DNA of 64,000 bases. Origin: an uncultured Faecalibacterium sp. (lineage in GTDB: Bacteria; Bacillota; Clostridia; Oscillospirales; Ruminococcaceae). The stretch spans positions 1 to 64,000 of the forward strand of contig UQDV01000005.1 in NCBI GenBank assembly GCA_900539945.1, given 5' to 3'. Of the stretch, positions 21,525 through 55,002 are shown one piece after another. The position numbers and the translations under genes were made by a program. Each line of letters starts with the position of its first letter. Position 1 is the first letter of the stretch. Under the pieces are notes generated by a model. That model saw nothing but the letters and a program-made list of their open reading frames with translations, had not been told where the DNA came from and made no database searches.

Positions 21525-22556
21525 ATGGCTGTTAGAGTTGCTATCAATGGTTTCGGCCGCATTGGCCGTCTGGCTTTCCGTCAGATGTTTGACGCTGAGG
21601 GTTACGAGGTCGTCGCAATCAACGACCTGACCAGCCCCAAGATGCTGGCTCACCTGCTGAAGTACGATACTGCTCAGGGTTCTTTCTGCGGCAAGATCGG
21701 CGAAGGCAAGCACACCGTCGAGGCTACCGAGGATTCCATCATCGTTGACGGCAAGGAGATCAAGATCTACGCTGTCAAGGACGCAAAGGATGCTCCCTGG
21801 GGCGAGCTGAACGTTGATGTCGTTCTGGAGTGCACCGGCTTCTACACCAGCAAGGAGAAGAGCATGGCTCACATCCAGGCTGGCGCAAAGAAGGTCGTCA
21901 TCTCTGCTCCTGCCGGCAAGGATCTGAAGACCATCGTCTACTCCGTCAACGAGAAGACCCTGACCGCTGAGGATCAGGTCATCTCCGCTGCTTCCTGCAC
22001 CACCAACTGCCTGGCTCCCATGGCTAACACCCTGAACAAGACCTACCCCATCGTTTCCGGCATCATGACCACTGTTCATGCTTACACCGGCGACCAGATG
22101 ATCCTGGATGGTCCTCAGCGCAAGGGCGATCTGCGCCGTGCTCGTGCTGGTGCTCAGAACATCGTTCCCAACACCACCGGCGCTGCTAAGGCAATCGGCC
22201 TGGTCATCCCTGAGCTGAACGGCAAGCTGATCGGCTCTGCTCAGCGTGTGCCCGTTCCCACCGGTTCTACCACCATCCTGGTTGCCGTTGTCAAGGGTAA
22301 GGACGTTACCGTTGAGTCCATCAACGCTGCTATGAAGGCTGCTACCTCTGAGTCCTTCGGCTACAACGAGGATCAGATCGTTTCTTCCGACGTCATCGGC
22401 ATGCGTTACGGCTCTCTGTTCGACGCTACCCAGACCATGGTCGCTAAGATCGACGACGACACCTACCAGGTCCAGGTCGTGTCTTGGTACGACAACGAGA
22501 ACTCTTACACTTCTCAGATGGTTCGTACCATTAAGTACTTCGCTGAGAACTGCTAA
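21525..22556 (+). CDS. gap: Glyceraldehyde-3-phosphate dehydrogenase; 3' end replaced by the island
   Basis: This is a 343-residue NAD-dependent glycolytic enzyme converting glyceraldehyde-3-phosphate to 1,3-bisphosphoglycerate. The Rossmann start is [14 protein letters not shown] and the catalytic cysteine lies in [12 protein letters not shown] (about C158). The last 17 codons downstream of 22504 differ from a second copy of the same gene end at 54951-55002 mainly at third positions, with one Ser/Ala change. The present end is therefore probably island-derived, while the original end lies upstream of pgk. The protein product stays intact. Confidence 0.97.
22453..22504. other. attL: 52-bp core shared with the gap remnant at the other island end
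   Basis: Positions 22453-22504 are identical to 54899-54950. Upstream the sequences are unrelated; downstream they continue as diverged copies of the gap 3' end. The core includes GGTACGACAAC (22486-22496). That motif recurs at 22632-22642 next to the integrase gene, and as AGTACGACAAC at 54812-54822 on the far side, as expected of integrase core and arm sites. Confidence 0.8.
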
Positions 22557-22658
22557 TGACGTTCTGCCGTTAAAAATCGCCTGATTTGTCTGCCGGGGTT
22601 TGTCTTGCTCAACTACGAACAAGCCTGACTAGGTACGACAACCATATCTAGGAATTTT

Positions 22659-22703
22659 CGCCCTTCTTTTTGTGGTCCGCCGCAAAAGGAAGGGTGTTTT
22701 TTT
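22659..22703 (+). terminator. Terminator behind gap that also contains the integrase ribosome site
   Basis: CGCCCTTCTTTT (from 22660) pairs with AAAAGGAAGGG (22684-22694), and a run of seven T ends at 22703, directly before the integrase ATG. The AAGGAAGGG in the 3' arm is the only plausible ribosome site for the integrase, so the hairpin would mask it in gap readthrough RNA. Confidence 0.75.
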
Positions 22704-23615
22704 ATGTGTTTGAAAGAGCTTCGGGACGAATTTTTGTATGACTGTGAATGCCGCCACCTGGCAAAGGGGTCTCTGCGGAATTATCGGGCATCTACCCGGT
22801 TCTTGCTGGAATTTCTGGAACGGAAGCAGATCACAGAACTGGAGGATGTGCGCCCACGGCACCTTCGGGACCTGATGAAGGAAAAGCAGGATGCAGGCAA
22901 TACGCCCCGGTACATCAACGACCTGCTGAAGGTCTGGCGCACCTGGTTCAATTATCTGGTGGAGGAGGGCTATTTGGAGGAGCGAGATAATCCGGCCAAA
23001 AAGGTGAAGCCACTACGGCAGCCCCGGACCATCATTGATACCTTTACCGCAGCAGAAATGAAGCGGATGATCCAGTTTTACGACGGAAAGGACTTTCTGG
23101 AGGTGCGGAACAAGACCATCATCATGCTGCTGTTTGACACAGGGATGCGCTGTAATGAGATGATCCTGATGGAGCCCGAGGACATCAAACCGGATTACAT
23201 TCTGGTGAAGCATGGCAAGGGCGGCAAGGAGCGTGTGGTACCGAAATCTCCGGCATTGTCCAAGCAGCTCATCAAATACTGTGCACTCCGGGATGGCTAC
23301 CGGAAAGAATGCCCCACCTGCCACAGAAACCTTTTCCTCAGCAAAACAGGCAAGCCCCTCACGGATGAGGCAGTTGCTCGGATGTTGAAGCACGCTGCAG
23401 AGGAAGTGGGAGTCTCCTCCTCGGTACGGGTCAGCCCCCACACCTGCCGCCATACCTTCGCTCAAATGCAGCTGAAGAACGGCCTGGACCTGTACAGTGT
23501 CTCTCGCCTGATGGGGCACGTCAATATCATGATTACCCAGCGGTATCTGTTGGGCATCAAGGATAAGGACATCGTGGACCGGGGCACCCAGACCAGCCCC
23601 TTGATGAACCTGTAA
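22704..23615 (+). CDS. Tyrosine recombinase, integrase of the island
   Basis: This is a 303-residue phage-type integrase with an N-terminal SAM-like core-binding domain (about 5-90) and a C-terminal catalytic domain. The catalytic residues are R149 (TGMRCNE), K172/K175 (GKGGKERVV), H246 and R249 (PHTCRH), H272 (GHVN) and Y281 (ITQRYLLG). A CPTC...H-type insert (about 203-207) is present. It sits immediately after the gap 3' end, i.e. at the left attachment site, and reads inward, which is the standard position for an element integrase. No excisionase is obvious. Confidence 0.93.
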   Translation: MCLKELRDEFLYDCECRHLAKGSLRNYRASTRFLLEFLERKQITELEDVRPRHLRDLMKEKQDAGNTPRYINDLLKVWRTWFNYLVEEGYLEERDNPAKKVKPLRQPRTIIDTFTAAEMKRMIQFYDGKDFLEVRNKTIIMLLFDTGMRCNEMILMEPEDIKPDYILVKHGKGGKERVVPKSPALSKQLIKYCALRDGYRKECPTCHRNLFLSKTGKPLTDEAVARMLKHAAEEVGVSSSVRVSPHTCRHTFAQMQLKNGLDLYSVSRLMGHVNIMITQRYLLGIKDKDIVDRGTQTSPLMNL

Positions 23616-23640
23616 AAGAATAGAAGATCGTGTGAATAGG

Positions 23641-23675
23641 AGCAGTTCCGCCGGGTGGTGGGGCTGCTTTTTTGA
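23641..23675 (+). terminator. Terminator of the integrase gene
   Basis: AGCAGTTCC pairs (with wobble) with GGGGCTGCT, followed by TTTTTT (23641-23675). Confidence 0.7.
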
Positions 23676-23732
23676 TAGATGGGCATAAAAATACCCCCAT
23701 TGCTCTGCGGAGAGAGTAACGGAGGTGTAAGA

Positions 23733-24368
23733 TCAGTCGATTTCTTGGTCTAAAAGTTTGAGGAGTTCGATGGAACTGGGGGTGGCGTATTGATCGTTGA
23801 AGCTGTCTATAAAGACAAGATTCGCAAGAGCCTGATTCAACTGATAGACGGCCTTATTATTGGAATGCTTCAGCAGGAAGATGAATTGACGCCGCAGATC
23901 CCCATCAAACTGATGGGCCCTTATGGTAAGCAGAAGTTTTATGGTGACTTCTTTCCCGAGAGCGTTTAGCCGGTCGAAATTGCACAAAGTATCGTATCTT
24001 TTGTCACCTATATCAAACGGAATAGAATTGTCCGTTTCAGTGTTGTTAGGAAGATGATTGCCGGTATCTTGTGAATCTTCGGATTCGTGTTCGGGTGGGC
24101 GGTGCTTGGAGAGGGCTCCGTTGCTGGATGGAGAATAATGGCTGCCCAAAATCTCGGTTAAGGATAGCTCTCCCGATTCCAGTAGTGCTCCAATGGGTAC
24201 GTCAAGAGAGTGTGCAATGTCCTCCAGCAGACCGAGGTCGAACCGATCGGTGTTGCGATTCACCATATTATACAAGGTGGTATAGGGGATGCCGACCATG
24301 CGGCTGAGTTCTTTGATGGAAATCCTCTTGGCTTCTGCAATCGTCTTGATGTTCTGACCGACGCGCAT
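23733..24368 (-). CDS. XRE-family regulator with long C-terminal domain
   Basis: This is a 211-residue protein starting MRVGQNIKTIAEAKRISIKE at 24368 (GAAAGGAGTG upstream). The helix-turn-helix (ISIKELSRMVGIPYTTLYNMV) is at residues 15-35. An acidic, polar linker follows, then a helical C-terminus I do not recognise. It is divergent from the strong promoter at 24521-24549 and the small-gene operon beyond it, so it is probably the element's repressor controlling those genes and perhaps excision. Confidence 0.8.
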   Translation of the reverse strand: MRVGQNIKTIAEAKRISIKELSRMVGIPYTTLYNMVNRNTDRFDLGLLEDIAHSLDVPIGALLESGELSLTEILGSHYSPSSNGALSKHRPPEHESEDSQDTGNHLPNNTETDNSIPFDIGDKRYDTLCNFDRLNALGKEVTIKLLLTIRAHQFDGDLRRQFIFLLKHSNNKAVYQLNQALANLVFIDSFNDQYATPSSIELLKLLDQEID

Positions 24369-24520
24369 TTCGAAACACTCCTTTCTAATAGATGTATATA
24401 TAATACTACGAAATTCTAAAATGTCAATATTGACAGAAAGAGAAAATGAATAAAAACCAATAACAAGAATTGGCAATACTAACAAATTCTCAATTTGGAT
24501 AGTTATTTTTGAAAAAGTTC

Positions 24521-24549
24521 TTGACATGGGTACTGGTTGGGAGTATACT
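24521..24549 (+). promoter_or_regulatory. Strong promoter of the island's small-gene operon
   Basis: -35 TTGACA (24521-24526, consensus), 17-bp spacer, -10 TATACT (24544-24549). It lies 150 bp from the divergent regulator gene. Confidence 0.8.
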
Positions 24550-24627
24550 TACGCTGCGTGGATGACCGATATGAGAATCTCGCAAGAGTCCGTTTCGGAC
24601 CAACTTTTTAAGAAAGGAGATGCCATC

Positions 24628-24891: not shown

Positions 24892-25206
24892 ATGCTAAAG
24901 ATCTTCGACAACTACTATCTGGACGCAAGCGGCGTGTGTTATATGCTGAAAAAAGCTCATGTAAAAGGTGACGGCAAGCTGGAGTACGATGTCTGTACCT
25001 ACCACACCAGTCTGGAGGAGGCGTTGGCAGAAGCTGTGAGGCGTGGGCTCCGAGAGGGGGTCGCAGGCGAGAAGCTGACGGAGTGGGAGCAGCTGTGCGG
25101 CGAATTCTGGCGGCTGAAGAGTGAGGTCCAGGGGCTGCTGGAGTCTATCAGCTCTGCAGACGATGCTTTGGACCTGGCTCTGAAGAACGGAAACAATTGT
25201 GCATAA
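24892..25206 (+). CDS. Unknown 104-residue protein of the island operon
   Basis: First full gene behind the promoter at 24521, with a GGAGG ribosome site before the ATG. Acidic, with predicted helices in the second half (EEALAEAVRRGLREG, LKSEVQGLLESI). The N-terminus (IFDNYYLDASGVCYMLKKA) looks like a small beta-hairpin domain. I do not recognise a family. The four small genes from here to 26128 share spacing and strong ribosome sites and look like one operon. Confidence 0.6.
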   Translation: MLKIFDNYYLDASGVCYMLKKAHVKGDGKLEYDVCTYHTSLEEALAEAVRRGLREGVAGEKLTEWEQLCGEFWRLKSEVQGLLESISSADDALDLALKNGNNCA

Positions 25207-25220
25207 ATAGGAGGGACTAT

Positions 25221-25553
25221 ATGCTAGAACTTTACTTTAATGGTGGAAATTTTCTGCCCGAGAGCCGTGAAGAGGAGCAGTCCGCAGAGACGGTGCTCAA
25301 CATCATGCTGGCTGGAAAAACGACCGACACGGAGATGTGCATCTGGCCCTGTTTTTACCATGCGCCCATGTGCAAGGGGGTGCTGATCAATCTGGACGAC
25401 GGCACAACGCTGCGGATCAAGCCTTTCTTGAATAAGGAGGGAGAGCCGGAGCTGCTGATCGGATGTGTGACAGAGGAGACTGTCGAGGAGGTGTACCAGT
25501 GGGTCTCGAATTACGACTTTGATGAGCCATGTGCTGGTAATGTGCCATCGTAA
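25221..25553 (+). CDS. Unknown 110-residue acidic protein
   Basis: Start MLELYFNGGNFLP at 25221 is chosen because AGGAGGG precedes it; the ATG-like start at 25197 overlaps the previous gene. The protein is acidic, with a beta-rich middle (MCKGVLINLDDGTTLRIKPFL). The phrase LRIKPFLNKEGEPELLIG is echoed by IIEPCQNKDGAPQLAITIY in the next gene, so the two may be distant paralogues. Function unknown. Confidence 0.6.
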   Translation: MLELYFNGGNFLPESREEEQSAETVLNIMLAGKTTDTEMCIWPCFYHAPMCKGVLINLDDGTTLRIKPFLNKEGEPELLIGCVTEETVEEVYQWVSNYDFDEPCAGNVPS

Positions 25554-25610
25554 ACAAAAATGCCTGACTCACGCAGGGTGTTTATCAGGAATAACCTGTG
25601 ATGCGGAGGT

Positions 25611-25811
25611 GTGAAACCGCTTCAGCTAGGAAAATCGTTTGCTGATGGCTTTATAATGCGGCTGACGGACAAACCAGATAACCCGGAAAACACGATAATC
25701 ATCATTGAACCGTGCCAGAACAAGGACGGTGCACCACAGCTGGCGATAACCATTTACCAAGCTACCGGCAGTGAACAGCGCACCCAAACAAATGAGCAGG
25801 GTGCGGAATGA
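25611..25811 (+). CDS. Unknown 66-residue protein
   Basis: GTG start at 25611 preceded by GCGGAGGT. The central segment resembles the C-terminal half of the preceding protein (N-K-D/E-G-x-P-x-L). It ends four bases into the next annotated frame. No family recognised. Confidence 0.5.
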   Translation: MKPLQLGKSFADGFIMRLTDKPDNPENTIIIIEPCQNKDGAPQLAITIYQATGSEQRTQTNEQGAE

Positions 25812-25855
25812 GCAGGATGTCCAGAAGCAGTGTCATGCTAAAAAAGGAGATTAAA

Positions 25856-26128
25856 ATGAGCTTTTTAAAGGATGTATTTCAGATCGCTGACGAGATCAAG
25901 CAGAATCAGGAGAAATTCAAAAGTGCTGTGGAGACAAGCTTTCATCAGCTGGATGTGCTTGTCCGACCGTATCTGAGCGAAGTGCAGAATGAGACCCTAT
26001 CTGAAATTCTAGAAGGGCTGGTCGCATCCGTTGCCGAGCACTCGTTCCAAATCGGCTACAGCAGCGCCATGCAGACCTTTGCGGAAGCGGCGGCAGCACT
26101 CGAGGCAGGGGCCCATGTGCAACAGTAA
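25856..26128 (+). CDS. Unknown 90-residue helical protein
   Basis: Start MSFLKDVFQIADEIKQNQEK at 25856 behind AAAAGGAGA. The sequence is almost entirely helical, with amphipathic heptads (LDVLVRPYLSEVQNETLSEILEGL), suggesting a coiled-coil or four-helix protein. It is the last of the small genes before the helicase. No family recognised. Confidence 0.6.
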   Translation: MSFLKDVFQIADEIKQNQEKFKSAVETSFHQLDVLVRPYLSEVQNETLSEILEGLVASVAEHSFQIGYSSAMQTFAEAAAALEAGAHVQQ

Positions 26129-26166: not shown

Positions 26167-26330
26167 CTATAGGGACGGGAATGATGTGTGATGTTCATTC
26201 TCATTCCTATAATATCACAGAACAAGGCGTTTGAACAGAGATTTTTTATGGGCAGGCGCATACCAACCGGCGCATGGTCTGGCAAGATGGCTGGGCTGTG
26301 CGCCTTATTATTATAGGAGGACCAGACGTA

Positions 26331-28550
26331 ATGAAGACGGCTATAGAGAAACCAGTGACGCCTGGCGGTGTCTTTGATCATCTGATGGTGCCCCAGGGGG
26401 ACGAGCCGGAATTTCACCCCTCCAAGGACCCAAAGACGATGACCGTGCAGGAGTCCTTAGAGGAGGTAGACAGATTTCTGTGCTGGAATAGGATGACCCC
26501 AGAGGAGAAGCGGGCGGAGCAGGAGGCACAGAGGGCGGCCAGCCACGCCACGGAGCAAGCCGCCGGGGATATCCCCTGTACTATGAGACCGGAGAGGGTG
26601 CCAGACACCCCACAGGACACGGTATGGGAGGACTTGACGGACGCTCCACAGGACGTTGTGCGAGCTGATGTGTTGGACACCTCAATGGGCGGTATGTTGG
26701 AGGCTGTGCCGAGCAACGGTGCACCAGAAAGAGCTGCAGACACGATGCCGGACGATGTCCCGGACGCCACAGAGGGAAATGTGCCAGGGAGGGAAGCAGA
26801 TACTGTGCCGGATGGCCCACCGGACGATCTCCCAGACACTGTAGAGGGGAACATGCCGGATGTGGTAGGAGCCTTGACAGCACAGGAAAAGGCGGGAAAT
26901 GAAACCGTACAGGGTGTGCCAGAGGTGGAGGTGGTGCCCCCGGAAGCAATTGTGCCATTAGGACAGACAGGAGAGGACGCCCCGGCGGCGGAGGAACGGT
27001 GGGCGTATGCCTCGGAGCTGATCGGTGATGCGTTCCAGCATTGGGGAAATGGAAGAGTCCTTCTGGATATGGGGACCGGACGGGGCAAGAGTGAATTCGT
27101 TATCCGGAAGATGGCTGGATGGGCGGTTGATCAATTTTTGGAGGGAAATTGTGACAACCGGATCCTTATGCTTTGCCCATTGACGCTTTTGCATGAAGAT
27201 CTGGAAAACCGACGCAGGGAAGAATACTTGACAGTGTTCGGCGATGCTTCGGAAGAAGGATGGGATCAATATAAAGATGTCTTAACCGTTATAACCTACC
27301 AGAAACTTGAGCAGCTCTGTAAAGGAGACGCATCCGATCATAGAAGCCTTCAGAAGCTATTGGACAGACATCGAATTATCATTGCGGATGAATGCCACTA
27401 CTGGTCCGAGTTCTCAGCCTTCAACATCAATACACACTATTCATTTGATGCCCTCCTACAGGCAGAGAAAGATCATACCGTGATTTATATGAGTGCGACC
27501 GGGCGGGACACTTGGAAACTTCTGGAAGAAAAAGGCGGTCCAACGCAGCCTGAACGGATCTATAGGCTGCCGCAGAACTATGAGTACGTCAAAGCCGCCT
27601 ATTTCTATGCCCGACACAATCTGGTGACAATTTTGAAACGCCTTCCGGTGGGTGAAAAAGCGATCGTGTTCGTGGAGCTTGGTGATGATCTGGCTGAAAT
27701 GGAAACAATATTTGGCGACACAGCCGCCTATTATTGTTCCCCTTTCAACGAAAGATATCGGAAAAAGTACAGCGATTTGTCGGTCTGCGTGAAGGATGGC
27801 CAGCAGCTAAAGGATATTCTGTTCACGACAAAGGCTATGGGTGTGGGAATCGGGTTGAAAGATCGGGGTGTGAAGCATATTTTTATCGACCAATGGAATC
27901 CTCTGGAAATAGCTCAGTCGCTCGGACGCAAGCGTTCCTTGGATGCAGATGACACCTGTACTGTTTATTTCAGGGATTATAGTCTTGACTGGTACTGGGG
28001 CACAAACAGTGGGCTGAAAAAGTTTCGGCGTATGCTGTTGAACAAGTATTTGCCAGCGCAGGCGTACATGGCGGGTGAAGAAGAATTTGATAAATACCTG
28101 CACAGTGACGCTCCGGAAGTGATTCAGAAGAGAATCGATAAGAGTAAAATTTTGGAACACAATGTAGTCAATGGATACCATATCAATCCGCTGGGGGTTC
28201 AACAGGTAGAACACGATATCGAAACGCTTGATGACATTATGAGCTCAACGAATTATCCTGAGTCATTTATGAAGTATGCGATGTTTAACCTACACCAACC
28301 CATCAAAGCGTATCGGTTCAAGGATTTGGAAGATTGGCTCTATGCACACCTCAATCAACCGATGGATCCAGAGGAAATGACAGAAAAAATTATGAGGTTT
28401 GGCTATATTGAAAGATATCAAGGGAGAGATCCGGGTCGGATGGGGTTGAACAGATTTCTTCCATGTTATGGTGTTAAGATTGTAAGTGATAGAGAGAATA
28501 AGAGAAATGAGAATCGTAATAAAACTTTCTGGACGTTGATGAAACAGTGA
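26331..28550 (+). CDS. SF2 helicase-like protein with long acidic repeat linker
   Basis: This is a 739-residue protein starting MKTAIEKPVTPGG at 26331 (TAGGAGGA upstream). Residues about 85-215 are a low-complexity Asp/Pro/Val/Glu-rich linker built from short degenerate repeats (DTMPDDVPDATEGN, DTVPDGPPDDLPDTVEGN). The helicase core follows: Walker A DMGTGRGKSEF (about 246-256), DECH box (about 352-355), SATG motif III, and a motif VI-like QSLGRKRSLD. It resembles plasmid/element replication or phage-type DNA helicases, but I cannot name a family. In this position it is most likely a replication or transfer helper of the element; a defence role is an alternative. Confidence 0.75.
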   Translation: MKTAIEKPVTPGGVFDHLMVPQGDEPEFHPSKDPKTMTVQESLEEVDRFLCWNRMTPEEKRAEQEAQRAASHATEQAAGDIPCTMRPERVPDTPQDTVWEDLTDAPQDVVRADVLDTSMGGMLEAVPSNGAPERAADTMPDDVPDATEGNVPGREADTVPDGPPDDLPDTVEGNMPDVVGALTAQEKAGNETVQGVPEVEVVPPEAIVPLGQTGEDAPAAEERWAYASELIGDAFQHWGNGRVLLDMGTGRGKSEFVIRKMAGWAVDQFLEGNCDNRILMLCPLTLLHEDLENRRREEYLTVFGDASEEGWDQYKDVLTVITYQKLEQLCKGDASDHRSLQKLLDRHRIIIADECHYWSEFSAFNINTHYSFDALLQAEKDHTVIYMSATGRDTWKLLEEKGGPTQPERIYRLPQNYEYVKAAYFYARHNLVTILKRLPVGEKAIVFVELGDDLAEMETIFGDTAAYYCSPFNERYRKKYSDLSVCVKDGQQLKDILFTTKAMGVGIGLKDRGVKHIFIDQWNPLEIAQSLGRKRSLDADDTCTVYFRDYSLDWYWGTNSGLKKFRRMLLNKYLPAQAYMAGEEEFDKYLHSDAPEVIQKRIDKSKILEHNVVNGYHINPLGVQQVEHDIETLDDIMSSTNYPESFMKYAMFNLHQPIKAYRFKDLEDWLYAHLNQPMDPEEMTEKIMRFGYIERYQGRDPGRMGLNRFLPCYGVKIVSDRENKRNENRNKTFWTLMKQ

Positions 28551-29825: not shown

Positions 29826-31181
29826 ATGACAAAAATTCGGCACGATGTAATGTTGAGACTCGTAAAGGTATTGGATGTGGTGATGATCACACTTCCGTTT
29901 GCGGCTTGCTGGGTCTGGTACTATGCGGCAAAAACACCGCTGGATGGAACTTGGCAGGGCCATGCAGTTATTTTGGGCCTATATGCGGTGCTGTTTATTC
30001 TGCTGGGCAAGACCTATGATGCATTCTGGATGTCCATGCAGCGAGTTTCCGAGCTGATGTACGGTCAGGTCCTGGCGGCGATGGCGACGGACGGGATCTT
30101 TTACATTGTGATCTGCCTGATGGCCACGAAGCTGTGCAATCTTCTGCCGGGAATCGCTGCCATTGCAGGACAGTTTGTGATGGCTGGCATCTGGTCTGCG
30201 GTTGCACATCGCTGGTATTACAAAGCATTCCCTCCGCAGCCTACCACCGTGGTCTATGATGTGCGCCGTGGTATGGAAAAGCTGATCCAAGACTACGGTC
30301 TGGACAGCAAGTACGAGGTGAAAAAAGTTCTGAGCGTAGAGGAGTGCCTGGAAGATCTGAGTGTTTTGGATGGTATGAAGACCGTATTCCTCAGCGGCGT
30401 CCACAGCCATGAACGTAACATCATCCTGAAGTATTGTGTGATGAACGACATCAATACGTTCATCATTCCTCGTGTGGGCGATGTTCTGATGAGTGGTGCC
30501 TGGCCGATGCACATGCTTCACCTTCCGGTGCTGCGAGTCGGTCGATACATGGCAAAGCCGGAGTTCCTCTTTGTCAAGCGTGCAATGGACATTGTGCTGT
30601 CCCTGGTGGCCCTGATCATTCTTAGCCCGATTTTCCTGATCACGGCGATTGCGGTGAAGTCGGATGGCGGCCCTGCATTCTATAAGCAGGTGCGTCTGAC
30701 CAAGGATGGTAAGCCCTTCGAGATCCTGAAGTTCCGCTCCATGCGTGTGGATGCAGAAAAGGACGGTGTGGCTCGCCTTTCCACCGGTGACAAGGATGAC
30801 CGTATCACCAAGGTCGGTCATATCATCCGTGCCTGCCGCCTGGATGAGCTGCCCCAGCTGCTGAATATCCTCAAGGGTGACCTGTCCATCGTTGGTCCCC
30901 GCCCGGAGCGCCCGGAGATTGCCGCACAGTACTGTGAAGAAATGCCGGAGTTTGCGCTGCGTCTGCAGGCGAAGGCTGGCCTCACCGGTTATGCACAGGT
31001 GTACGGAAAATATAACACCACACCGTATGATAAGCTGCAAATGGATCTGATGTATATTGCCCACCCCAGCCTGGTCGAGGACCTGAAGATCATACTGGCT
31101 ACGGTGAAGATCCTGTTTATGCCAGAGTCCACAGAGGGTGTCAGCGAAGGGCAGACTACTGCCATGAGCGGCAAAAAATAA
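29826..31181 (+). CDS. Initiating polyprenyl-phosphate sugar-1-phosphate transferase
   Basis: This is a 451-residue WbaP/EpsE-type enzyme that puts the first sugar phosphate on undecaprenyl phosphate at the inner membrane. Four N-terminal membrane segments and a Rossmann-like middle are followed by the bacterial sugar transferase domain: KRAMDIVLSLVALI membrane hairpin, KSDGGPAFYKQVR, EILKFRSMRVDAE, RACRLDELPQLLNILKGDLS, VGPRPERPE. Codon use is host-like, unlike the AT-rich genes that follow. Its last codons (MPESTEGVSEGQTTAMSG) recur as a separate fragment at 33451-33519, showing that the SIR2-TPR pair was inserted here. Confidence 0.92.
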   Translation: MTKIRHDVMLRLVKVLDVVMITLPFAACWVWYYAAKTPLDGTWQGHAVILGLYAVLFILLGKTYDAFWMSMQRVSELMYGQVLAAMATDGIFYIVICLMATKLCNLLPGIAAIAGQFVMAGIWSAVAHRWYYKAFPPQPTTVVYDVRRGMEKLIQDYGLDSKYEVKKVLSVEECLEDLSVLDGMKTVFLSGVHSHERNIILKYCVMNDINTFIIPRVGDVLMSGAWPMHMLHLPVLRVGRYMAKPEFLFVKRAMDIVLSLVALIILSPIFLITAIAVKSDGGPAFYKQVRLTKDGKPFEILKFRSMRVDAEKDGVARLSTGDKDDRITKVGHIIRACRLDELPQLLNILKGDLSIVGPRPERPEIAAQYCEEMPEFALRLQAKAGLTGYAQVYGKYNTTPYDKLQMDLMYIAHPSLVEDLKIILATVKILFMPESTEGVSEGQTTAMSGKK

Positions 31182-35380: not shown

Positions 35381-35407
35381 ATATATGAAGAAATTGGAGT
35401 AAATAAG

Positions 35408-38779: not shown

Positions 38780-38780
38780 T

Positions 38781-44797: not shown

Positions 44798-45844
44798 ATG
44801 TCTGCATTTGATAACGCAACCCTTATGATCACTGGTGGTACTGGTTCTTTTGGCTCCACCGTTCTGAAGCACTTCCTGGATTCCGACCTGAAGGAAATCC
44901 GCATCTTCTCCCGTGACGAGAAGAAGCAGGACGATATGCGCCACGAGCTTCAGGCCAAGCATCCTGACACTGCCAAGAAGGTGAAGTTCTACATCGGTGA
45001 TGTCCGCAACCCGCAGTCCATCAAGGATGCCATGCCCGGTGTTGACTACATCTTCCACGCTGCTGCTTTGAAGCAGGTTCCTTCCTGCGAGTTCTTCCCC
45101 ATGCAGGCTGTCCAGACCAACATCATCGGTACTGATAACGTCCTGCATGCCGCTATTGACGCCGGTGTTAAGCGTGTCGTTTGCCTGTCCACCGATAAGG
45201 CAGCCTACCCCATCAATGCCATGGGCATCTCCAAGGCTATGATGGAGCACGTTATCTACGCCAACGCCCGTGTGGCCGCTGAGCGGGGCGGCACGACCAT
45301 CTGCTGCACCCGTTATGGTAACGTCATGTGCAGCCGTGGTTCTGTCATTCCGCTGTTCATCGACCAAATCAAGGCAGGCAACCCCATCACTATCACCGAC
45401 CCCAACATGACCCGCTTTCTGATGAACCTGGACGAGGCTGTGGATCTGGTCTTGTTCGCTTTCCAACATGCAAATCCCGGTGATTTGTTCATCCAGAAGT
45501 CTGATGCTTCCACCATCGGCGATTTGGCAAAGGCAGTCCAGCAGTTGTTTGGTGATACCGGTACGAACATCATCGGCACTCGTCATGGTGAGAAGCTGTT
45601 CGAGACCCTGATGACCCGTGAGGAGCGTCTGCGCAGCCAGGATATGGGTCACTACTTCCGTGTTGCCGCTGACAACCGTGACCTGAACTACGACAAGTTC
45701 GTGGTCAAGGGCGAGGTACATACCATGGCGGACGAGTCCTACACCAGCCACAACACCGAGCGACTGGATGTGGAAGGCACTGTGAAGAAGATTCTGACCA
45801 CCGAATATGTCCAAAATGCACTGAAGGGCATCCCGAATGTCTAA
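44798..45844 (+). CDS. fnlA: UDP-GlcNAc 4,6-dehydratase/5-epimerase (FnlA/CapE type)
   Basis: This is a 348-residue short-chain dehydrogenase/reductase. TGGTGSFGSTVLKHFL binds NADP, and the variant active site shows KQVPSCEFFP and YPINAMGISK. FnlA/CapE catalyses the first step of UDP-N-acetyl-L-fucosamine synthesis. FnlB and FnlC homologues follow, which settles the pathway. Base composition jumps here to host-like GC and codon use, marking a mosaic boundary at about 44.8 kb. Confidence 0.9.
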   Translation: MSAFDNATLMITGGTGSFGSTVLKHFLDSDLKEIRIFSRDEKKQDDMRHELQAKHPDTAKKVKFYIGDVRNPQSIKDAMPGVDYIFHAAALKQVPSCEFFPMQAVQTNIIGTDNVLHAAIDAGVKRVVCLSTDKAAYPINAMGISKAMMEHVIYANARVAAERGGTTICCTRYGNVMCSRGSVIPLFIDQIKAGNPITITDPNMTRFLMNLDEAVDLVLFAFQHANPGDLFIQKSDASTIGDLAKAVQQLFGDTGTNIIGTRHGEKLFETLMTREERLRSQDMGHYFRVAADNRDLNYDKFVVKGEVHTMADESYTSHNTERLDVEGTVKKILTTEYVQNALKGIPNV

Positions 45845-46418
45845 AGAAAAGTTGCTGCTGGTTGGTGCCGGCGGCTTTGGGCGCATGGTGGCGGAACAGG
45901 CGATGCTCCAATATGACTGTGCCTTTGTGGACGATGGACAACCTATAGGTCCTGAGATCTGTGGCATTCCGGTGGTTGGCGGACTTGCTGATTTGCTGGA
46001 GTTGCGGAAGGTGTATGGTTTGCTGGTGGTGGGCATCGGCAATAACCGGTTTCGGGCACAGGTGTATGAGAAAGCAAAAGCACTTGACTATGGGTTCCCC
46101 AACATCATTGTTCCCAGTGCCTACATCAGTCCATACGCTAAGTTGGGATGCGGTTGTGTGGTATTGCAAAATGCCTGTGTCCAGAACGGTGCGTCCGTTG
46201 GCGACGGTGTTCTGCTGAATGCCGGAACAGAGGTCCACTGTGATGCGACGGTAGGGGACTACGCCCTGATTTACACCAACAGCGTCATTCGCACTGGTGC
46301 GACTGTGGGCAACTTTGCCCGCATCGGCAGCAACTGCACCATCTGTAATCATGCAACCGTGCCGGATGGCGCAGACATTCCGGACTGCACCGCAGTACAT
46401 TCAGAGGTGAAACAATGA
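45837..46418 (+). CDS. Sugar O/N-acetyltransferase, NeuD/PglD family
   Basis: This is a 193-residue protein. An N-terminal nucleotide-sugar-binding Rossmann part (KLLLVGAGGFGRMVAEQAML) is followed by a left-handed hexapeptide-repeat beta-helix (GCGCVVLQNACVQNGASVGD and similar turns). It overlaps fnlA by 8 nt and fnlB by 4 nt, so it belongs to the same operon. It probably acetylates an amino sugar intermediate or the UDP-sugar product; the substrate is not certain. Confidence 0.82.
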   Translation: MSKEKLLLVGAGGFGRMVAEQAMLQYDCAFVDDGQPIGPEICGIPVVGGLADLLELRKVYGLLVVGIGNNRFRAQVYEKAKALDYGFPNIIVPSAYISPYAKLGCGCVVLQNACVQNGASVGDGVLLNAGTEVHCDATVGDYALIYTNSVIRTGATVGNFARIGSNCTICNHATVPDGADIPDCTAVHSEVKQ

Positions 46419-47611
46419 ACATTCTAGTCACAGGTGCCAAGGGCATGGTGGGAACTGCCCTGTGCAACAATCTGAAAAACATCCGGGATGGGAAAAATAA
46501 GACCCGCCCGGCATTGAATATTGAAGAAATCTACGAGTACGATCTGGATTCTACCCCGACGGAGCTGGACGAGTACTGCCAGAAGGCGAACTTCGTGTTC
46601 AATCTGGCAGGGGTGAATCGTCCGGAAAATCCGGAGGATTTCATGAAGGGCAACTTCGGCTTTGCATCCGACCTGCTGAACTGCCTGAAGAAGCACAACA
46701 ACAAGGCAACCATCATGCTGTCCTCCTCCATTCAAGCCACGTTGGCAGGCCGCTTTGGCAACAGCGAGTACGGCCGCAGCAAGAAGGCTGGCGAGGAGCT
46801 GTTCTTCCAGTATGCTCAGGAGACCGGAGCAAAGGTTGCCGTCTACCGTTTCGTGAACCTGATGGGACATAGCCGCCCCAAGTACAACAGTGCCGTCAGC
46901 ACCTTCTGCTGGGCAGTTGCCAATGATGAGCCCTTCACCGTCAACGACAGCAGCACCGAGTTGGAGCTGCTGTACATCGACGATCTTGTAGAAGGAATGT
47001 TTGACCTGCTGGAAGGCAAAGAACAGCACTGTGAGTTTGACGGTGTGGAGACTGTCCTGAAAGAAGATGGCCGCTATTGTTGTGTTCCTGTGACCCACAA
47101 GGTCACGCTGGGCGAAATCGTTGACTTGCTGCAGGAGTTCAAGGCACAGCCCACTACGCTTATGATGCCGAAGATGCCGAATGGCTCCTTTGCAAAGAAG
47201 CTGTACTCCCTGTATCTGACCTATCTGCCGACGGACAGGTTCAAGTATGCCCTTAAGATGAATGTGGACAACCGCGGTTCCTTTACCGAGCTGGTTCATA
47301 CCGCCGACTGTGGACAGGTGAGCATCAACATCAGCCGTCCCGGAATCACCAAGGGGCAGCACTGGCACAACTCCAAGTGGGAGCTTTTCATTGTGGTTGC
47401 TGGTCATGGCTTGATTCAGGAACGGAACATTAACACCGGGGAAACGGTAGAGTTTGAAGTTTCCGGGGACAAGATTGAGGCTGTCCACATGATTCCCGGC
47501 TGGACTCACAATATCATCAATCTGTCGGAAACGGAGAATCTTGTGACGGTGATGACCTGTAACGAGATCTTCAACCCGAACCACCCGGACACCTTTTTTG
47601 AGCCGGTGTAA
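46415..47611 (+). CDS. fnlB: FnlB/CapF: NADPH-dependent reductase with C-terminal cupin
   Basis: This is a 398-residue bifunctional enzyme. The N-terminal SDR domain (ILVTGAKGMVGTALCNN; SEYGRSKKAGEE catalytic Y-x3-K) carries out reduction, and the C-terminal cupin (about 265-398; KGQHWHNSKWELF, WTHNIINL with metal histidines) carries out 3-epimerisation. It acts second in UDP-L-FucNAc synthesis and makes UDP-6-deoxy-L-talNAc. Length matches CapF. Confidence 0.9.
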   Translation: MNILVTGAKGMVGTALCNNLKNIRDGKNKTRPALNIEEIYEYDLDSTPTELDEYCQKANFVFNLAGVNRPENPEDFMKGNFGFASDLLNCLKKHNNKATIMLSSSIQATLAGRFGNSEYGRSKKAGEELFFQYAQETGAKVAVYRFVNLMGHSRPKYNSAVSTFCWAVANDEPFTVNDSSTELELLYIDDLVEGMFDLLEGKEQHCEFDGVETVLKEDGRYCCVPVTHKVTLGEIVDLLQEFKAQPTTLMMPKMPNGSFAKKLYSLYLTYLPTDRFKYALKMNVDNRGSFTELVHTADCGQVSINISRPGITKGQHWHNSKWELFIVVAGHGLIQERNINTGETVEFEVSGDKIEAVHMIPGWTHNIINLSETENLVTVMTCNEIFNPNHPDTFFEPV

Positions 47612-47644
47612 GAAAAGAATACAGGTTGACGTTAGGAGATTTTT

Positions 47645-48832
47645 ATGGAACACAATTTTACATGGAAAAACGATGGGCGTACCAAGGTCATGATTGGCTG
47701 TGGCACCCGTCCGGAAATCATTCGGCTGGCTGCCGTTATCAAGCGTTGCCGTGAATACTTTGACTGCTGCGTGGTCTATTACAATCAAAACTGGGACAGA
47801 AACCTTTCCACCGTTTTCTGGGAGGATTTCGAGCTGAAAAACACCTTCGGGGAGTATGGACCCGACATTCTGGTGCCCGTGGTGGGCGAGAATCTTGGCG
47901 TTACCTGCGGCAACATTATGGGCCGCAGCTATGAACTCCTCTCTGAATTGCAGCCGGAGGGCTATCTGGTGCTGGGCGATACCAACTCCTGCCTGTCCGC
48001 CATCTCTGCGAAGCGGCTGCACATCCCGCTGTTTCACATGGAGGCAGGCAACCGCTGTAAGGACGAGTGCCTGCCCGAGGAGACCAATCGCCGCATCGTG
48101 GATGTGATCTCCGACGTGAATATGTGCTATTCCGAATTCGCCCGGAAGTATCTGGCGGATACGGGTCTGCCCAAGGAGCGTACCTACCAGACAGGTTCTC
48201 CTATGGCAGAGGTGCTGCACATGAATCTGGAGAAGATTCAGAAAAGCGATGTGTTGGAGCGTCTGGGGCTGGAAAAGGATAAGTATATTCTGCTGTCCGC
48301 CCACCGTGAGGAGAACATCGATTCCGAAAAGAACTTCCTGAGCCTGTTTACTGCTATCAACGCACTGGCAGAGAAGTACGATATGCCCATCCTGTACTCC
48401 TGCCATCCCAGAAGCAAGCACCGTCTGGAAAAGAGTGGCTTTAAACTCGACCCTCGTGTCCGGGTCAATGAGCCGCTGGGCTTCAACGACTACAACAAGC
48501 TGCAAATGAATGCGCTGGCTATCGTCTCCGACTCCGGCACTCTGCCCGAGGAGAGCAGCTTCTACCTGTCCATTGGTCATCCCATCGCCGCCGTGTGCAT
48601 CCGTACCAGTACGGAACGCCCTGAGGCGCTGGAAGCCGGTGACTTCATTCTGGCGGGCATCACCACCCGGGAACTTCTCAACGCCACCGATATGGCAATC
48701 GAGATGAAGCAGAAGGGCGTTCTGGGCAAGCCCTGCCCCGACTATGTGGACGAGACCGTGTCCATGAAGGTGGTTCGCATCATTCAGGGTTATGTGAACG
48801 TGGTCAATAAGATGGTGTGGAGAAAATACTGA
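47645..48832 (+). CDS. fnlC: FnlC/CapG: UDP-sugar 2-epimerase of the UDP-L-FucNAc pathway
   Basis: This is a 395-residue WecB-fold non-hydrolysing 2-epimerase. The signatures are GCGTRPEIIRLAAVI, HMEAGNRCKDECLPEETNR (shortened here to its start, about residue 135), SAHREENID and SDSGTLPEE. As third enzyme it converts UDP-6-deoxy-L-talNAc into UDP-L-FucNAc. Together with fnlA and fnlB it makes FucNAc a predicted component of the polymer. Confidence 0.9.
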   Translation: MEHNFTWKNDGRTKVMIGCGTRPEIIRLAAVIKRCREYFDCCVVYYNQNWDRNLSTVFWEDFELKNTFGEYGPDILVPVVGENLGVTCGNIMGRSYELLSELQPEGYLVLGDTNSCLSAISAKRLHIPLFHMEAGNRCKDECLPEETNRRIVDVISDVNMCYSEFARKYLADTGLPKERTYQTGSPMAEVLHMNLEKIQKSDVLERLGLEKDKYILLSAHREENIDSEKNFLSLFTAINALAEKYDMPILYSCHPRSKHRLEKSGFKLDPRVRVNEPLGFNDYNKLQMNALAIVSDSGTLPEESSFYLSIGHPIAAVCIRTSTERPEALEAGDFILAGITTRELLNATDMAIEMKQKGVLGKPCPDYVDETVSMKVVRIIQGYVNVVNKMVWRKY

Positions 48833-48977: not shown

Positions 48978-50363
48978 ATGGGAAAGTATTTTGGAACCGA
49001 TGGCTTCCGTGGCGAAGCTGGAATCACGTTGACCGCTGACCACGCCTACAAGGTTGGTCGTTTTCTGGGCTGGTACTACAACGCCCTGCGCGAGCGCAAC
49101 GGCAACAACGAGCCTGCCCGCATCGTTATCGGCAAGGACACCCGCCGCAGCTCTTATATGTTCGAGTATAGTCTGGTCGCTGGTCTGACCGCTTCCGGCG
49201 CAGATGCCTACCTGCTGCACGTTACCACTACGCCGTCTGTGGCTTACATCGCCCGAGTGGACGACTTCGACTGCGGCATTATGATCTCTGCCAGCCACAA
49301 TCCCTACTACGATAACGGCATCAAGCTGATTGACTGCTATGGCGAGAAGATGCCGGAGGAAATCTTGCTGTTAGTCGAGGATTACATTGACGGAAAGCTC
49401 CATGTGTTCGATAAGGACTGGCCGGAGCTGCCTTTCGCTCACCGGGAACACATTGGCTGCACGGTGGACTATGTGTCCGGCCGCAACCGCTACATGGGCT
49501 ATCTGATCAGCCTTGGCATCTATTCCTTCAAGGGTGTCAAGGTTGGACTGGACTGCGCCAACGGCAGTTCCTGGAACATCGCTAAGTCTGTGTTTGATGC
49601 TCTGGGAGCCGATACCTACGTCATCAATGCACAGCCCAACGGTCTGAACATCAACAACAATGCTGGTTCTACCCACATTGAGGGTCTGCAGAAGTTCGTG
49701 GTAGAGAAGGGCCTGGACATCGGTTTTGCCTATGACGGCGATGCTGACCGTTGCCTGTGTGTGGATGAAAAGGGCAATGTCATCACTGGCGACCACATCC
49801 TGTACATCTATGGCTGCTATATGAAGGAACGTGGCAAACTGCTGACCAATACCGTCGTTACCACGGTCATGTCCAACTTTGGTCTGTATAAGGCTTTTGA
49901 TGAGAAGGGCATCGGCTATGCCAAGACTGCAGTGGGCGACAAGTATGTCTACGAGTATATGGCGAAAAACGGCTGCCGTATCGGCGGTGAGCAGAGTGGT
50001 CATATTATCTTCAGCAAGTACGCCAGTACGGGTGATGGTATCCTGACCAGTCTGAAAATGATGGAAGTAATGCTTGCCAAGAAAATGCCCATGAGCAAGC
50101 TGGCTGAACCTCTGAAGATTTACCCGCAGGTTCTGGAGAATGTCCGTGTGACCGACAAGAAAGCTGCACAGGATGATGAAGCAGTGCAGGCAGCAGTCAA
50201 GGCCGTAGCCGAGGCACTGGGTGATACTGGCCGTATCCTTGTCCGTGAGTCGGGCACTGAGCCGGTCGTGCGTGTGATGGTGGAAGCCCCTGACCACGAC
50301 ACCTGCCAGAAGTATGTGTCTCAGGTCGTGGAGACTATCAAGAGCAGAGGCTACGGAGTTTGA
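48978..50363 (+). CDS. Phosphoglucomutase/phosphomannomutase family enzyme
   Basis: This is a 461-residue alpha-D-phosphohexomutase. The phosphoserine loop ISASHNPYYDNGIK (about 96-109), metal loop DGDADRC (about 254-260), sugar loop GGEQSGH and phosphate loop RESGTEPVVRVM are all present. It is close in pattern to GlmM (opening YFGTDGFRGEAG), which makes glucosamine-1-phosphate for UDP-GlcNAc, the precursor of UDP-FucNAc. That would explain its place at the end of the fnl block. Host-like codon use. Confidence 0.9.
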   Translation: MGKYFGTDGFRGEAGITLTADHAYKVGRFLGWYYNALRERNGNNEPARIVIGKDTRRSSYMFEYSLVAGLTASGADAYLLHVTTTPSVAYIARVDDFDCGIMISASHNPYYDNGIKLIDCYGEKMPEEILLLVEDYIDGKLHVFDKDWPELPFAHREHIGCTVDYVSGRNRYMGYLISLGIYSFKGVKVGLDCANGSSWNIAKSVFDALGADTYVINAQPNGLNINNNAGSTHIEGLQKFVVEKGLDIGFAYDGDADRCLCVDEKGNVITGDHILYIYGCYMKERGKLLTNTVVTTVMSNFGLYKAFDEKGIGYAKTAVGDKYVYEYMAKNGCRIGGEQSGHIIFSKYASTGDGILTSLKMMEVMLAKKMPMSKLAEPLKIYPQVLENVRVTDKKAAQDDEAVQAAVKAVAEALGDTGRILVRESGTEPVVRVMVEAPDHDTCQKYVSQVVETIKSRGYGV

Positions 50364-50821
50364 GGGAGTTTGTCTACCAGATCCATTGCAGCACGAGTGC
50401 GAACCTGACAGTAGGCGAGGGTGTTATTTTAATAGTTCTTGGTTTACTGGCGTGGTTCAACCGAAGAGACAAGAAGTGGTTTCCTACTACCTATAGTGTA
50501 TTTTTGATTTTTTATATCACATTGCTGCGCCGTGCGCCGGGATATAATGAGAACATCCGTCTGCACCTGAAATTGTGGCCCAATGCTGGTGTGTGGGCGG
50601 GCAATCTGTTGAATCTGATCCTATATGTTCCGTTCGGCTGGACAGGTCAGAGATGGAAAACGGACAGAAGGAGAATAGTCGTTGCGGCTTTTCTGCTCTC
50701 GGTGTGTTGTGAAGAACTGCAGTATTTTACAGGTAGGGGCGTGGCAGATGTGAATGATGTGCTATTCAATACACTTGGAGCTGTGATAGGGATATGGATT
50801 GCAAGCAAGAATCTCTTTTGA
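50360..50821 (+). CDS. VanZ-like membrane protein
   Basis: This is a 153-residue protein starting at TTG 50360, overlapping the mutase stop. Four hydrophobic segments; the VanZ family features are NLLNLILYVPFGWTGQ and the C-terminal CCEELQYFTGRGVADVNDVL followed by NTLGAVIG. VanZ-like proteins are often found at the ends of surface polysaccharide loci. Their biochemical role is unknown apart from glycopeptide tolerance in some cases. Confidence 0.85.
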   Translation: MREFVYQIHCSTSANLTVGEGVILIVLGLLAWFNRRDKKWFPTTYSVFLIFYITLLRRAPGYNENIRLHLKLWPNAGVWAGNLLNLILYVPFGWTGQRWKTDRRRIVVAAFLLSVCCEELQYFTGRGVADVNDVLFNTLGAVIGIWIASKNLF

Positions 50822-50845
50822 AAAACTGATAAAAGTAATAATTTG

Positions 50846-50938: not shown

Positions 50939-50962
50939 GATGTAAAGAAATAACGGAGAGAG

Positions 50963-52184: not shown

Positions 52185-52372
52185 AATGGATCATAGAACT
52201 TATTCCATTGCTATGGTATACGGCTTAAGGGATTTCTATTGGGACAAGCAAAGTTCGATATCTTGTGCTCCATCTAAAAGACAGGAAAACCCGTAATGAA
52301 CAATCATTGCACATACGCCTATCGCATGAATCGGTGTGCGAGAGGCATATTCGGACTACGGAGACAAAAACA

Positions 52373-53168: not shown

Positions 53169-53289
53169 TGGTATTGTCATTTCATGTCCTAGTCCTCAAA
53201 AATAGCAAAAGATGTCTCAAGCACATCGCTGATTAGGCATCCCAATTTGCAGAGAAGCGGTCTGCCATGGCCTCTTAAAAAGTATAGAT

Positions 53290-53335
53290 ACACCGTGTGG
53301 ACAACTGAACCCTGGTAGTTCACACGGTGTTTTTA
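53290..53335 (+). terminator. Terminator upstream of the last island gene
   Basis: ACACCGTGTG (53290-53299) pairs with CACACGGTGT (53321-53330), followed by TTTT. Confidence 0.8.
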
Positions 53336-53383
53336 GAACAGAATATATAGTTTGTAACGTAAATAATAGGAAGGAGATGCATT

Positions 53384-54187
53384 ATGACAGAAATACACAA
53401 GCCCGGCGGTGGGCGAAAGCCATCAAAACCGGGTTACTGTGCCGACAAGAATCTAGCCCAGCAGATGGAGGCAACGGTCGCACTTTATAAGGAAAATCAC
53501 TCCCTCCAATCCATTGCCGATGCCTTGAATCTGAACCCGATCAAGGTTCGGAAGCTGCTCATCACAGCCGGGATCTATGAATCAGACGTAGCGGTGGTGT
53601 GGCGTACCTTTAGTAATTATAGAGAAACACAGGGTTACAAGGATGCAGTTCTCTCCACCGCATCATCCCTTAAGTTGTCCAGAGCCTCCGTCACCTCGTA
53701 CCTGCCATACGAAAAGGGCGTGTACTTTCCAAAGGAGGCACCCGTGGAAAAAATCAGCGTGGGAGCAGAGCGGCAACGGAGATACAGAGCAGTAAGAAAA
53801 CTGCGAACTGAGCCGACAGAGGAGCATTTGTGGGAAGTGGCTCTGCTTTATTCTGGAGTGCGGTTCAAAACCTACTCCGGTTTACCCTTTACCTATGAAA
53901 TACGAAAAGGCCGGAATGGGCAATATACAAAAGAGCTTTGGATCGACCGCCGGGAGAACAGTAAAAGCCTGGCCTGGAGTTCGGTATTGCTGGCACTGCA
54001 CAATATTAAAAAGGTAGGAGCAGTGGTGGACCGCCCGAAAGCTCTGGGCGACATCCGAGGCGTGACTTATATTTATGGAATGTTCTATCGGTTTGGACTG
54101 ATCAATATGCCAGAAACGGCGAAGGAGAGGAGTAGGAATCGAGCTGCTGGGGGAGCTTCAGAGAACGAAAAAATAGTTGAAGGGTGA
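53384..54187 (+). CDS. Putative DNA-binding protein of the island's right end
   Basis: This is a 267-residue basic protein with AAGGAGAT before the ATG. A helix-turn-helix-like segment lies at about 42-62 (SLQSIADALNLNPIKVRKLL), resembling resolvase or sigma-like HTHs, and a second possible HTH at about 90-105 (SSLKLSRASVTSYL). The rest is unrecognised. As the last gene before attR it may control excision or replication of the element. The function is inferred from position. Confidence 0.6.
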   Translation: MTEIHKPGGGRKPSKPGYCADKNLAQQMEATVALYKENHSLQSIADALNLNPIKVRKLLITAGIYESDVAVVWRTFSNYRETQGYKDAVLSTASSLKLSRASVTSYLPYEKGVYFPKEAPVEKISVGAERQRRYRAVRKLRTEPTEEHLWEVALLYSGVRFKTYSGLPFTYEIRKGRNGQYTKELWIDRRENSKSLAWSSVLLALHNIKKVGAVVDRPKALGDIRGVTYIYGMFYRFGLINMPETAKERSRNRAAGGASENEKIVEG

Positions 54188-54759
54188 AAATCTCCGGCTG
54201 AAAAGGTGACGCAGCTGGCGGGATGTAGAAAAACTTCAGAATGACGTCGAGAAGCTGACAGAGGATAGCGAGATATTTGTGCGTTTTCCAAACGTATCAA
54301 GGCCTGACTATAAAAAGGTGTATTCTATGATGGCCCGTGTGCTAGGGGGACGATTGATGCCAGGGAAAATAAAGATCTCGCTGAGCCCGTCCTCGTTGGA
54401 AACAGAGACAGAATGAATGAAGGAATCACATAATTTGTCTCATATCAAACAAATATCCCCCTTCTCCCACTGTACCCTTCAAAAACACGTCCGGTGAAAT
54501 TTCAATCCAAAAATCGCCGGGAAAAAGCTGCAAGGACCACAAACAACCTGCTACACAGCCATCTGGTACCTGCTCACCTCCATAAAATCCAGCCCAAGAT
54601 CGCCCCTCAAAGCCGCAAGATCACGGACTGAGGAGAGTACCTGGGCAGGGCAGACGCCCCGGCGGAGGCCCCGGGCCCCGGGCTCTCCGGAGGATGATGA
54701 ATGAGAACATGCGCTATCGTTCGCATAAATATACCACCTGAAAAAGAAGCAAGATAAAC
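54188..54759. other. Gene-free right margin of the island
   Basis: No credible gene. A short frame at about 54222-54416 may be a decayed continuation of element genes. A very GC-rich patch (CCCCGGGCCCCGGG around 54669-54682) could form a strong hairpin before the promoter at 54760. Confidence 0.4.
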
Positions 54760-54788
54760 TTGAAAATAACGATGAAACGTGGTATAAT
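54760..54788 (+). promoter_or_regulatory. Near-consensus promoter at the right island end, reading outward
   Basis: -35 TTGAAA (54760-54765), 17-bp spacer, -10 TATAAT (54783-54788). In the integrated state it reads through attR toward the gap remnant. In a circular form it would read across attP into the integrase gene. Confidence 0.8.
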
Positions 54789-54898
54789 GGTGATACGAAC
54801 AAACTGTGTTTAGTACGACAACTGTGCGCTGTGGTACTGTAACTGTTGTTTCAAAATTAGGAACGACTACAAAAAGTGTGCGAAAAACTAGCGTAGCT

Positions 54899-55002
54899 AC
54901 GACGACACCTACCAGGTCCAGGTCGTGTCTTGGTACGACAACGAGAACTCCTACACCGCTCAGATGGTCCGTACCATCAAGTACTTCGCTGAGAACTGCT
55001 GA
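54899..55002 (+). pseudogene. attR with the original 3' end of gap
   Basis: Positions 54899-54950 equal 22453-22504 exactly. Positions 54951-55002 encode [16 protein letters not shown] and stop, i.e. the end of gap, differing from the present gene by third-position changes and Ala for Ser. It has no 5' part and is the stranded original gene end. A copy of the integrase-site motif (GGTACGACAAC) lies at 54932-54942, and the related AGTACGACAAC at 54812-54822. Confidence 0.9.

Follow-up and report, generated by a model that had tools for sequence, protein, structure and literature searches.

The window, a stretch of 64,000 nucleotides from an uncultured Faecalibacterium sp., holds an island of 32.4 kb set into Faecalibacterium DNA inside the 3′ end of gap, the gene for glyceraldehyde-3-phosphate dehydrogenase (GAPDH). 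The island is bounded by two copies of a 52-bp direct repeat (attL and attR, 32,446 bp apart), has a XerD-like tyrosine integrase at one end directly on the junction, 147 bp past the gap stop codon, and carries surface-polysaccharide genes; the resident pgk gene stands beyond its far end. Very probably this is a site-specific integrative island, driven into gap by an integrase. An earlier, sequence-only reading of the window had proposed such an integration, and the junctions, the single gap ends of relatives and the target of the integrase family all support it. Coordinates are collected in Table 1.

The structure of the junctions is largely as that reading described it. The repeat is exact over its full 52 bp, the integrase does lie directly behind gap, and the second, stranded gap end before pgk keeps the gap frame up to its stop codon. 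The two gap tails differ at six of 52 bases, of which four are silent third positions, one is a first position (Ser to Ala, with Ala in the stranded copy) and one changes the stop codon (TAA/TGA), so the differences are indeed mostly at third positions. The related motif proposed for both ends, GTACGACAAC, was found where it had been placed; the + strand of the whole window has four copies (22487, 22633, 54813 and 54933), the opposite strand none. What needs correction is the extent of the element, which spans the exchange points near 22497 and 54943 and does not reach 55002. The resulting gap can be read as chimeric, host-derived to about 22497 and supplied by the element beyond. The GC content is 0.37–0.41 in the middle of the island (32–44 kb), compared with 0.48–0.61 in the left flank and 0.60–0.65 in the right flank past 56 kb. 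No tRNA or tmRNA gene lies within the window. A chance repeat is ruled out by the exact, in-frame coding match together with the matching stranded end; 17 other gap pairs built in the same way also speak against it.

The genus was then represented by 31 Faecalibacterium species genomes, in 26 of which the gap-end DNA was matched. Two copies of the gap end, 13–42 kb apart, were found in five genomes (G001, G002, G030, G019 and G033), and one copy in the other 21, where pgk followed gap on the same strand at 0.3–6.1 kb in 12 cases. The nearest comparison for the window is G031, where pgk follows gap at 0.3 kb; the two sequences align in the gap tail (107 bp, 95%) and again ahead of pgk (156 bp, 75%), but not in between. 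The comparison with island-free relatives that had been suggested is therefore favourable. As to empty sites, 16 of the 21 single-copy sites are clean, having neither a left-end motif by pattern nor an integrase fragment, but the remaining five are not: four (G029, G043, G044 and G045) keep left-end motifs after gap with no integrase, and G028, although counted as single-copy, retains integrase residues 1–36 and is therefore a decayed occupied site. G029, with one gap end and no integrase match, is 89% identical from its gap end to G001 and G002 from attR, over 1.8–1.9 kb; because G029 has left-end motifs, this common flank may be the remnant of an older element. Among the 31 genomes the integrase was matched at E≤1e-60 in four (G001, G002, G030 and G019, the last with an internal stop), and G033 has a fragment only (residues 10–37). 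About 1.2 kb past the gap end of one single-copy genome (G024, locus L044) there is a priming transferase, with no second tail and with pgk 10.9 kb off, which may represent an earlier polysaccharide locus at this site.

To place the exchange point, 18 gap attL/attR pairs were anchored on the TGG of the codons for WYDNE, a GAPDH motif. The start of the repeat varies greatly on this scale: in L090 it is at least 60 bases before TGG, in L008 12 bases past it, and in the other pairs between these extremes. All 18 pairs agree exactly at +12 and +13, and 17 of them over +12 to +19, so that the exchange most likely maps to the WYDNE codons, at the GAG codon. A block at +33 to +37 is also a possible exchange point. 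We prefer +12 to +19 because in the window it is the left copy that departs from the genus sequence at +20, +26, +38 and +47 alike; these changes are most simply explained by a single source, the element, having supplied them all. A core centred on the inverted pair GTCGT...ACGAC, to the left of WYDNE, was set aside since the repeat starts at, inside or after TACGACAAC in eight elements (L004–L008, L011, L014 and L091).

The part of gap brought by the element has the look of a coding sequence under selection. From +12 to the stop, the paired tails of the 18 pairs show 31 synonymous codon differences, 12 of them in L016, and 5 that change an amino acid. Their homology runs out no more than 6 nt from the stop codon in 14 of the 18, but not in G033, L003, L005 and L016. 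Six pairs at a second target, yebC, show four synonymous codon differences and no others, with homology ending within 6 nt of the stop in all five that can be judged (in L070 the sequence itself stops there). The few amino-acid changes, together with homology that ends at the stop, make the element copy look like a selected coding tail, in line with the proposal that the island replaces the end of gap with its own synonymous version. The end of a protein-coding gene is restored here in the manner of e14, and direct-repeat junctions are accompanied by empty sites in relatives. The junctions, the coding tail and the single gap ends of relatives are evident from these comparisons of sequence. We infer that the integrase in the window performed the insertion. 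It would recombine the element with chromosomal gap at the WYDNE codons; the element's own site would bring the rest of gap to its stop codon plus a terminator; gap would thereby stay whole, with its old end left past the right junction.

The target of related integrases was examined more widely. Genome contigs of 84,980 species, each represented by a single genome, were scanned; 39 stretches matched, and 20 loci were confirmed. The scan was not exhaustive, as G030 and G019 came from the genus search only. At 45% identity or more, the integrase lies directly behind gap and on the same strand in 16 of 16 scan loci (the contigs of L011 and L016 end within gap), even though in nine of them the host gap is only 40–47% identical to that of the window. 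The 17th locus (L017, 43% identity) lies behind yebC by its reading frames, and tblastn of the same place (L098) agrees; the last three are distant (25–28%). Samples of larger groups were searched as well, and 396 genomes of the family, 394 of the order and 391 of the class gave 8, 9 and 4 hits at their respective thresholds. Here the integrase lies behind gap in L067, L090 and L091 and behind yebC in L068–L071, L092, L093 and L095–L097 (L068–L071 being assigned from reading frames); that of L094 is degenerate (three stops) and is preceded by neither gene in the flank examined.

Altogether, 32 relatives at 34% identity or more comprise 21 at gap, 10 at yebC and one at neither, or 22 at gap with the window included. 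Integrase relatives thus do adjoin gap in other genomes, across several clostridial families; homologues at other targets, which would have counted against the earlier reading, comprise only the group that is just as specific for yebC and the degenerate L094. In a maximum-likelihood tree of 33 integrases (G019 and L094 left out), the yebC set forms a single branch with support of 98/99, and the target labels need two changes, the least possible for three groups, against a mean of 10.6 when shuffled. The loci and the tree, both read from sequence, show a fixed target across the family.

The integrase of the window shares 91% identity with its counterparts in F. prausnitzii APC923/51-1 and Faecalibacterium sp. 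I4-1-79, and the protein cluster containing its exact sequence represents 3,477 member sequences in public data. It aligns with XerD over residues 17 to 282, its closest solved relatives being XerC-like 4a8e and XerD 1a0p. Its sequence gives no sign of an arm-binding domain, the SAM-like domain starting already at residue 17, and by this sequence test it does not belong with the arm-binding integrases of the lambda/Tn916 type. In a separate 525-aa protein (P0037) an O-antigen ligase domain (PF04932) is joined to the greater part of this integrase, either as a real fusion or as an assembly artefact. In the G019 island (L032) the integrase breaks off at the start of a segment that holds another recombinase-like gene; the same segment lies about 12 kb further inside the island in G002, which suggests that the break in G019 results from a deletion.

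Because the XerD-like alignment begins at residue 17 and the first domain is SAM-like, the integrase may itself bind the repeated motifs at the element ends. Copies and near-copies in the Faecalibacterium islands number two at the left end and three at the right, spaced 20–21 bp apart, and these direct repeats are probably accessory integrase sites, by analogy with known recombinases. Accessory direct repeats of the core motif occur with the simple tyrosine recombinases of TnpI/IRS and integron attI systems, which serve cointegrate resolution or cassette capture, unlike the integration of an island into a gene tail seen here. The ends of 21 elements (five represented by the left end only), 6.7 kb in all, contain 25 copies of the pattern TAYGAYAAB, which was chosen after the ends had been inspected, on the + strand, where 0.47 would be expected, and no copy on the opposite strand. 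Twelve of the 25 fall in six related Faecalibacterium islands, and two (right ends of L006 and L007) resemble promoter −10 boxes. The pattern corresponds to the gap codons for Y-D-N, immediately left of the proposed exchange point. At the matching place yebC tails have TACCAYAAY in four of six pairs and GGCACAAC in two, and the short word that gap and yebC tails appear to share is a lead only.

A sigma-70-type promoter is predicted to face outward at the right end, and TTGNAA-N16-18-TATAAT occurs at the same place in six of six Faecalibacterium islands. In an excised circle it may drive the integrase, and in the chromosome it would face pgk; the left terminator-like hairpin would stand between this promoter and the integrase in the circle.

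Table 1. Features of the gap island and its junctions, by position in the window
Feature	Position	Strand	Remarks
gap (glyceraldehyde-3-phosphate dehydrogenase)	21525..22556	+	343 aa; repeat comparison, tblastn against relatives
attL, left copy of 52-bp repeat	22453..22504	+	
Most likely exchange region, GAG codon of WYDNE	22497..22504	+	inferred; right copy 54943–54950
Element-supplied gap 3′ end, synonymous version	22505..22556	+	
Left accessory-site pair, TACGAACAAG and TACGACAAC	22612..22644	+	putative; 20 bp apart
Terminator-like hairpin between gap and integrase	22659..22696	+	
XerD-like tyrosine integrase	22704..23615	+	303 aa; PF00589, E 2.2e-30
Cro/C1-type helix-turn-helix regulator	23733..24527	-	homologue in G030 island
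Three small open reading frames, no assigned function	24892..26128	+	homologues at left end of G002 and G030 islands
ResIII/DEAD helicase-like protein	26274..28550	+	also in G002 island, 91% over 533 aa
Priming sugar-phosphate transferase (Bac_transf)	29826..31181	+	homologue in 5/5 other Faecalibacterium islands
SIR2-like protein	31253..32440	+	resembles defence-associated SIR2 domains
Glycosyltransferases and Wzy-type polymerase	34172..40613	+	polymerase 37349–38779
Wzx-type flippase	41206..42642	+	
LicD-family protein	42729..43520	+	
Nucleotide-sugar genes	44798..48832	+	Polysacc_synt_2, PglD-like, epimerase, UDP-GlcNAc 2-epimerase family
Phosphoglucomutase-family and VanZ-family genes	48978..50821	+	
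Right-end gene, no assigned family	53384..54187	+	76% homologue at right end of G001 island
Outward sigma-70-type promoter match	54760..54788	+	predicted; 11 of 12
Right accessory sites TACGAACAAAC, TACGACAAC and weaker TACTGTAAC	54792..54846	+	putative; spacing 20–21 bp
attR, right copy of 52-bp repeat	54899..54950	+	
Stranded original gap 3′ end	54951..55002	+	
Terminator-like hairpin	55086..55122	+	read as original gap terminator
pgk, resident gene past island	55438..56646	+	435 bp from stranded end

The cargo of the window appears to be a complete-looking surface-polysaccharide cluster of the Wzx/Wzy type, with a priming transferase, glycosyltransferases, flippase and polymerase, and it would alter the cell surface. 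The SIR2-like gene sits within this cluster, between the priming transferase and the glycosyltransferases, and a single open reading frame (ORF) of 610 aa at 38781–40613 has two tandem glycosyltransferase group 1 domains. A polysaccharide cluster is present in six of six Faecalibacterium islands examined, with a Wzx- or MurJ-type flippase match in each of the other five. The transferase family PF02397 has 80 hits across the 31 genus genomes, about one per Mb by rounded genome sizes; six of these lie inside five islands (about 156 kb in total), against 0.16 expected. Since the hits are spread through the genomes, the gap site is one of several polysaccharide loci.

Faecalibacterium and family islands also carry genes like those of defence systems, such as the SIR2-like gene of the window, a Drt3b-like reverse transcriptase near the right end of the G002 island (L027:4125-6134, E 1.8e-121) and type I methylase and specificity subunits in the G033 and L014 islands. 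The cargo is mosaic, judging by the contrast between a nucleotide-sugar region of 4.0 kb that is 90% identical in DNA to G033 and the DNA upstream of gap (966 bp), which is 72% identical; gap itself is 95% identical. The window and G033 have the phosphoglucomutase-family gene (48978–50363) inside the island, G001 and G002 have it immediately beyond attR, and in G029 it adjoins the lone gap end; it seems to have moved across the edge of the island. Outside Faecalibacterium the islands of the family are smaller (5.7 to 18.8 kb) and their genes, as far as the part of the ORFs scanned shows, are varied: resolvases in L003, L006 and L067, GGDEF in L006, WYL regulators in L011 and L014, and in L004, close to the right end, genes resembling those for phage terminase and portal.

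Several results weigh against a mobile, integrase-driven island. The integrase is broken in G019, G028 and G033, and many copies may therefore be fixed. Pair L016 departs from the 8-bp exchange region past its first two bases, and the block at +33 to +37 is likewise exact in 18 of 18 pairs; TAYGAYAAB is absent from 10 of 21 elements; and the gap integrases are not one clade, the yebC group being nested within them and some deep branches being weak. No relaxase was recognised either: the relaxase families PF03432 and PF01076 match 12 and 10 of 16 genomes, with no listed place within the 16 gap islands, in which other relaxase families were not searched, and Pfam finds no relaxase among 29 ORFs of the window. 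An integrative conjugative or mobilizable element was rejected on these grounds. Nine window ORFs tested with PHROGs gave no phage structural match, and in a collection of viral contigs 50 stretches fitted the integrase pattern, of which none was confirmed, and none matched the right-end pattern.

The same facts can be turned towards other explanations. Whilst a local duplication, in which homologous recombination or gene conversion produced the second gap end as a large fragment was inserted and the integrase is a bystander, would suit a repeat that is itself gap sequence, left ends that share terminator-like DNA with host flanks, and the sites without an intact integrase, it is very improbable. 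The arrangement is repeated where both the integrase and the gap gene before it have diverged, and at yebC as well, the target tracks the integrase phylogeny, and all 18 gap repeats contain the same short codon stretch. Only a little less improbable is a defective prophage or phage satellite. The window integrase does match phage integrase families, and L004 is an exception within the family on account of its terminase- and portal-like genes, but membership was rejected here: neither PHROGs nor a Pfam scan of 29 island ORFs gave a structural match, the viral contigs held neither a confirmed integrase relative nor a right-end match, and no capsid, terminase or portal was seen in the subset of other island ORFs scanned.

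It is unlikely, though well short of negligible, that the island is a domesticated polysaccharide locus, an old and fixed element whose cargo is swapped by homologous recombination between flanks and not by the integrase. The three broken integrases would fit this, as would the old left-end motifs after gap in four single-copy genomes and the mosaic cargo; left-end motifs also follow attR in G002, G030 and G033 by pattern, with a degenerate one in G001 by eye. However, four of the six islands (the window, G001, G002 and G030) have an intact integrase frame with conserved ends, and the attR flank of the window is free of older left-end motifs. Integration by the integrase thus accounts best for what is found at gap.

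The closest known working analogue is the e14 prophage of E. coli K-12, which integrates in the 3′ part of icd (PMC6379469). There, as here, the target is a gene of central metabolism, the element brings the codons of the 3′ end, and the displaced end stays behind at the opposite junction. In contrast to e14, a phage remnant of E. coli in another gene, the integrase family described here spans several clostridial families with gap or yebC as target, and the elements carry polysaccharide or varied cargo. In a survey that covers XerC/XerD-like 'simple' recombinases linked to mobile elements (Smyshlyaev et al. 2021, PMC8138268), 27 phages have simple recombinases and 410 have arm-binding ones. 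Our integrase resembles the former in having catalytic and core-binding domains only, and differs in the fixed protein-coding target of its family and in element ends with repeated motif copies. Mobile elements with capsular polysaccharide loci are known from gut bacteria, namely integrative conjugative elements of Bacteroidetes that have conjugation genes (PMC6907783); those of Faecalibacterium belong to a different phylum, and no PF03432 or PF01076 relaxase was found in the 16 islands tested.

Searches of the open-licence literature, judged by titles and the starts of abstracts, returned no description of gap or yebC as an integrase target. What is new, as far as these searches show, is that one family of simple recombinases uses both genes, that the exchange is placed at the WYDNE codons, and that six of six Faecalibacterium islands examined carry polysaccharide genes.

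An integration target within codons of a highly conserved GAPDH motif is unusual, and a family with two targets, gap and yebC, lets a change of target be studied. There is also a simple rule for annotation of such junctions, which is to look downstream for a second gap or yebC tail. Tentatively, and with rather more doubt than belief, we suggest that the WYDNE codons may be a port through which Faecalibacterium exchanges whole surface-polysaccharide loci, often with anti-phage genes, that an armless recombinase may thereby drive capsule switching, and that its specificity may reside in a short word (roughly TAYSACAAY) present in the gap tail and most yebC tails. If this is true, the shared word would explain how one integrase family uses two unrelated genes, and an abundant commensal of the human gut would have a testable route by which to change the surface met by phages and the immune system.

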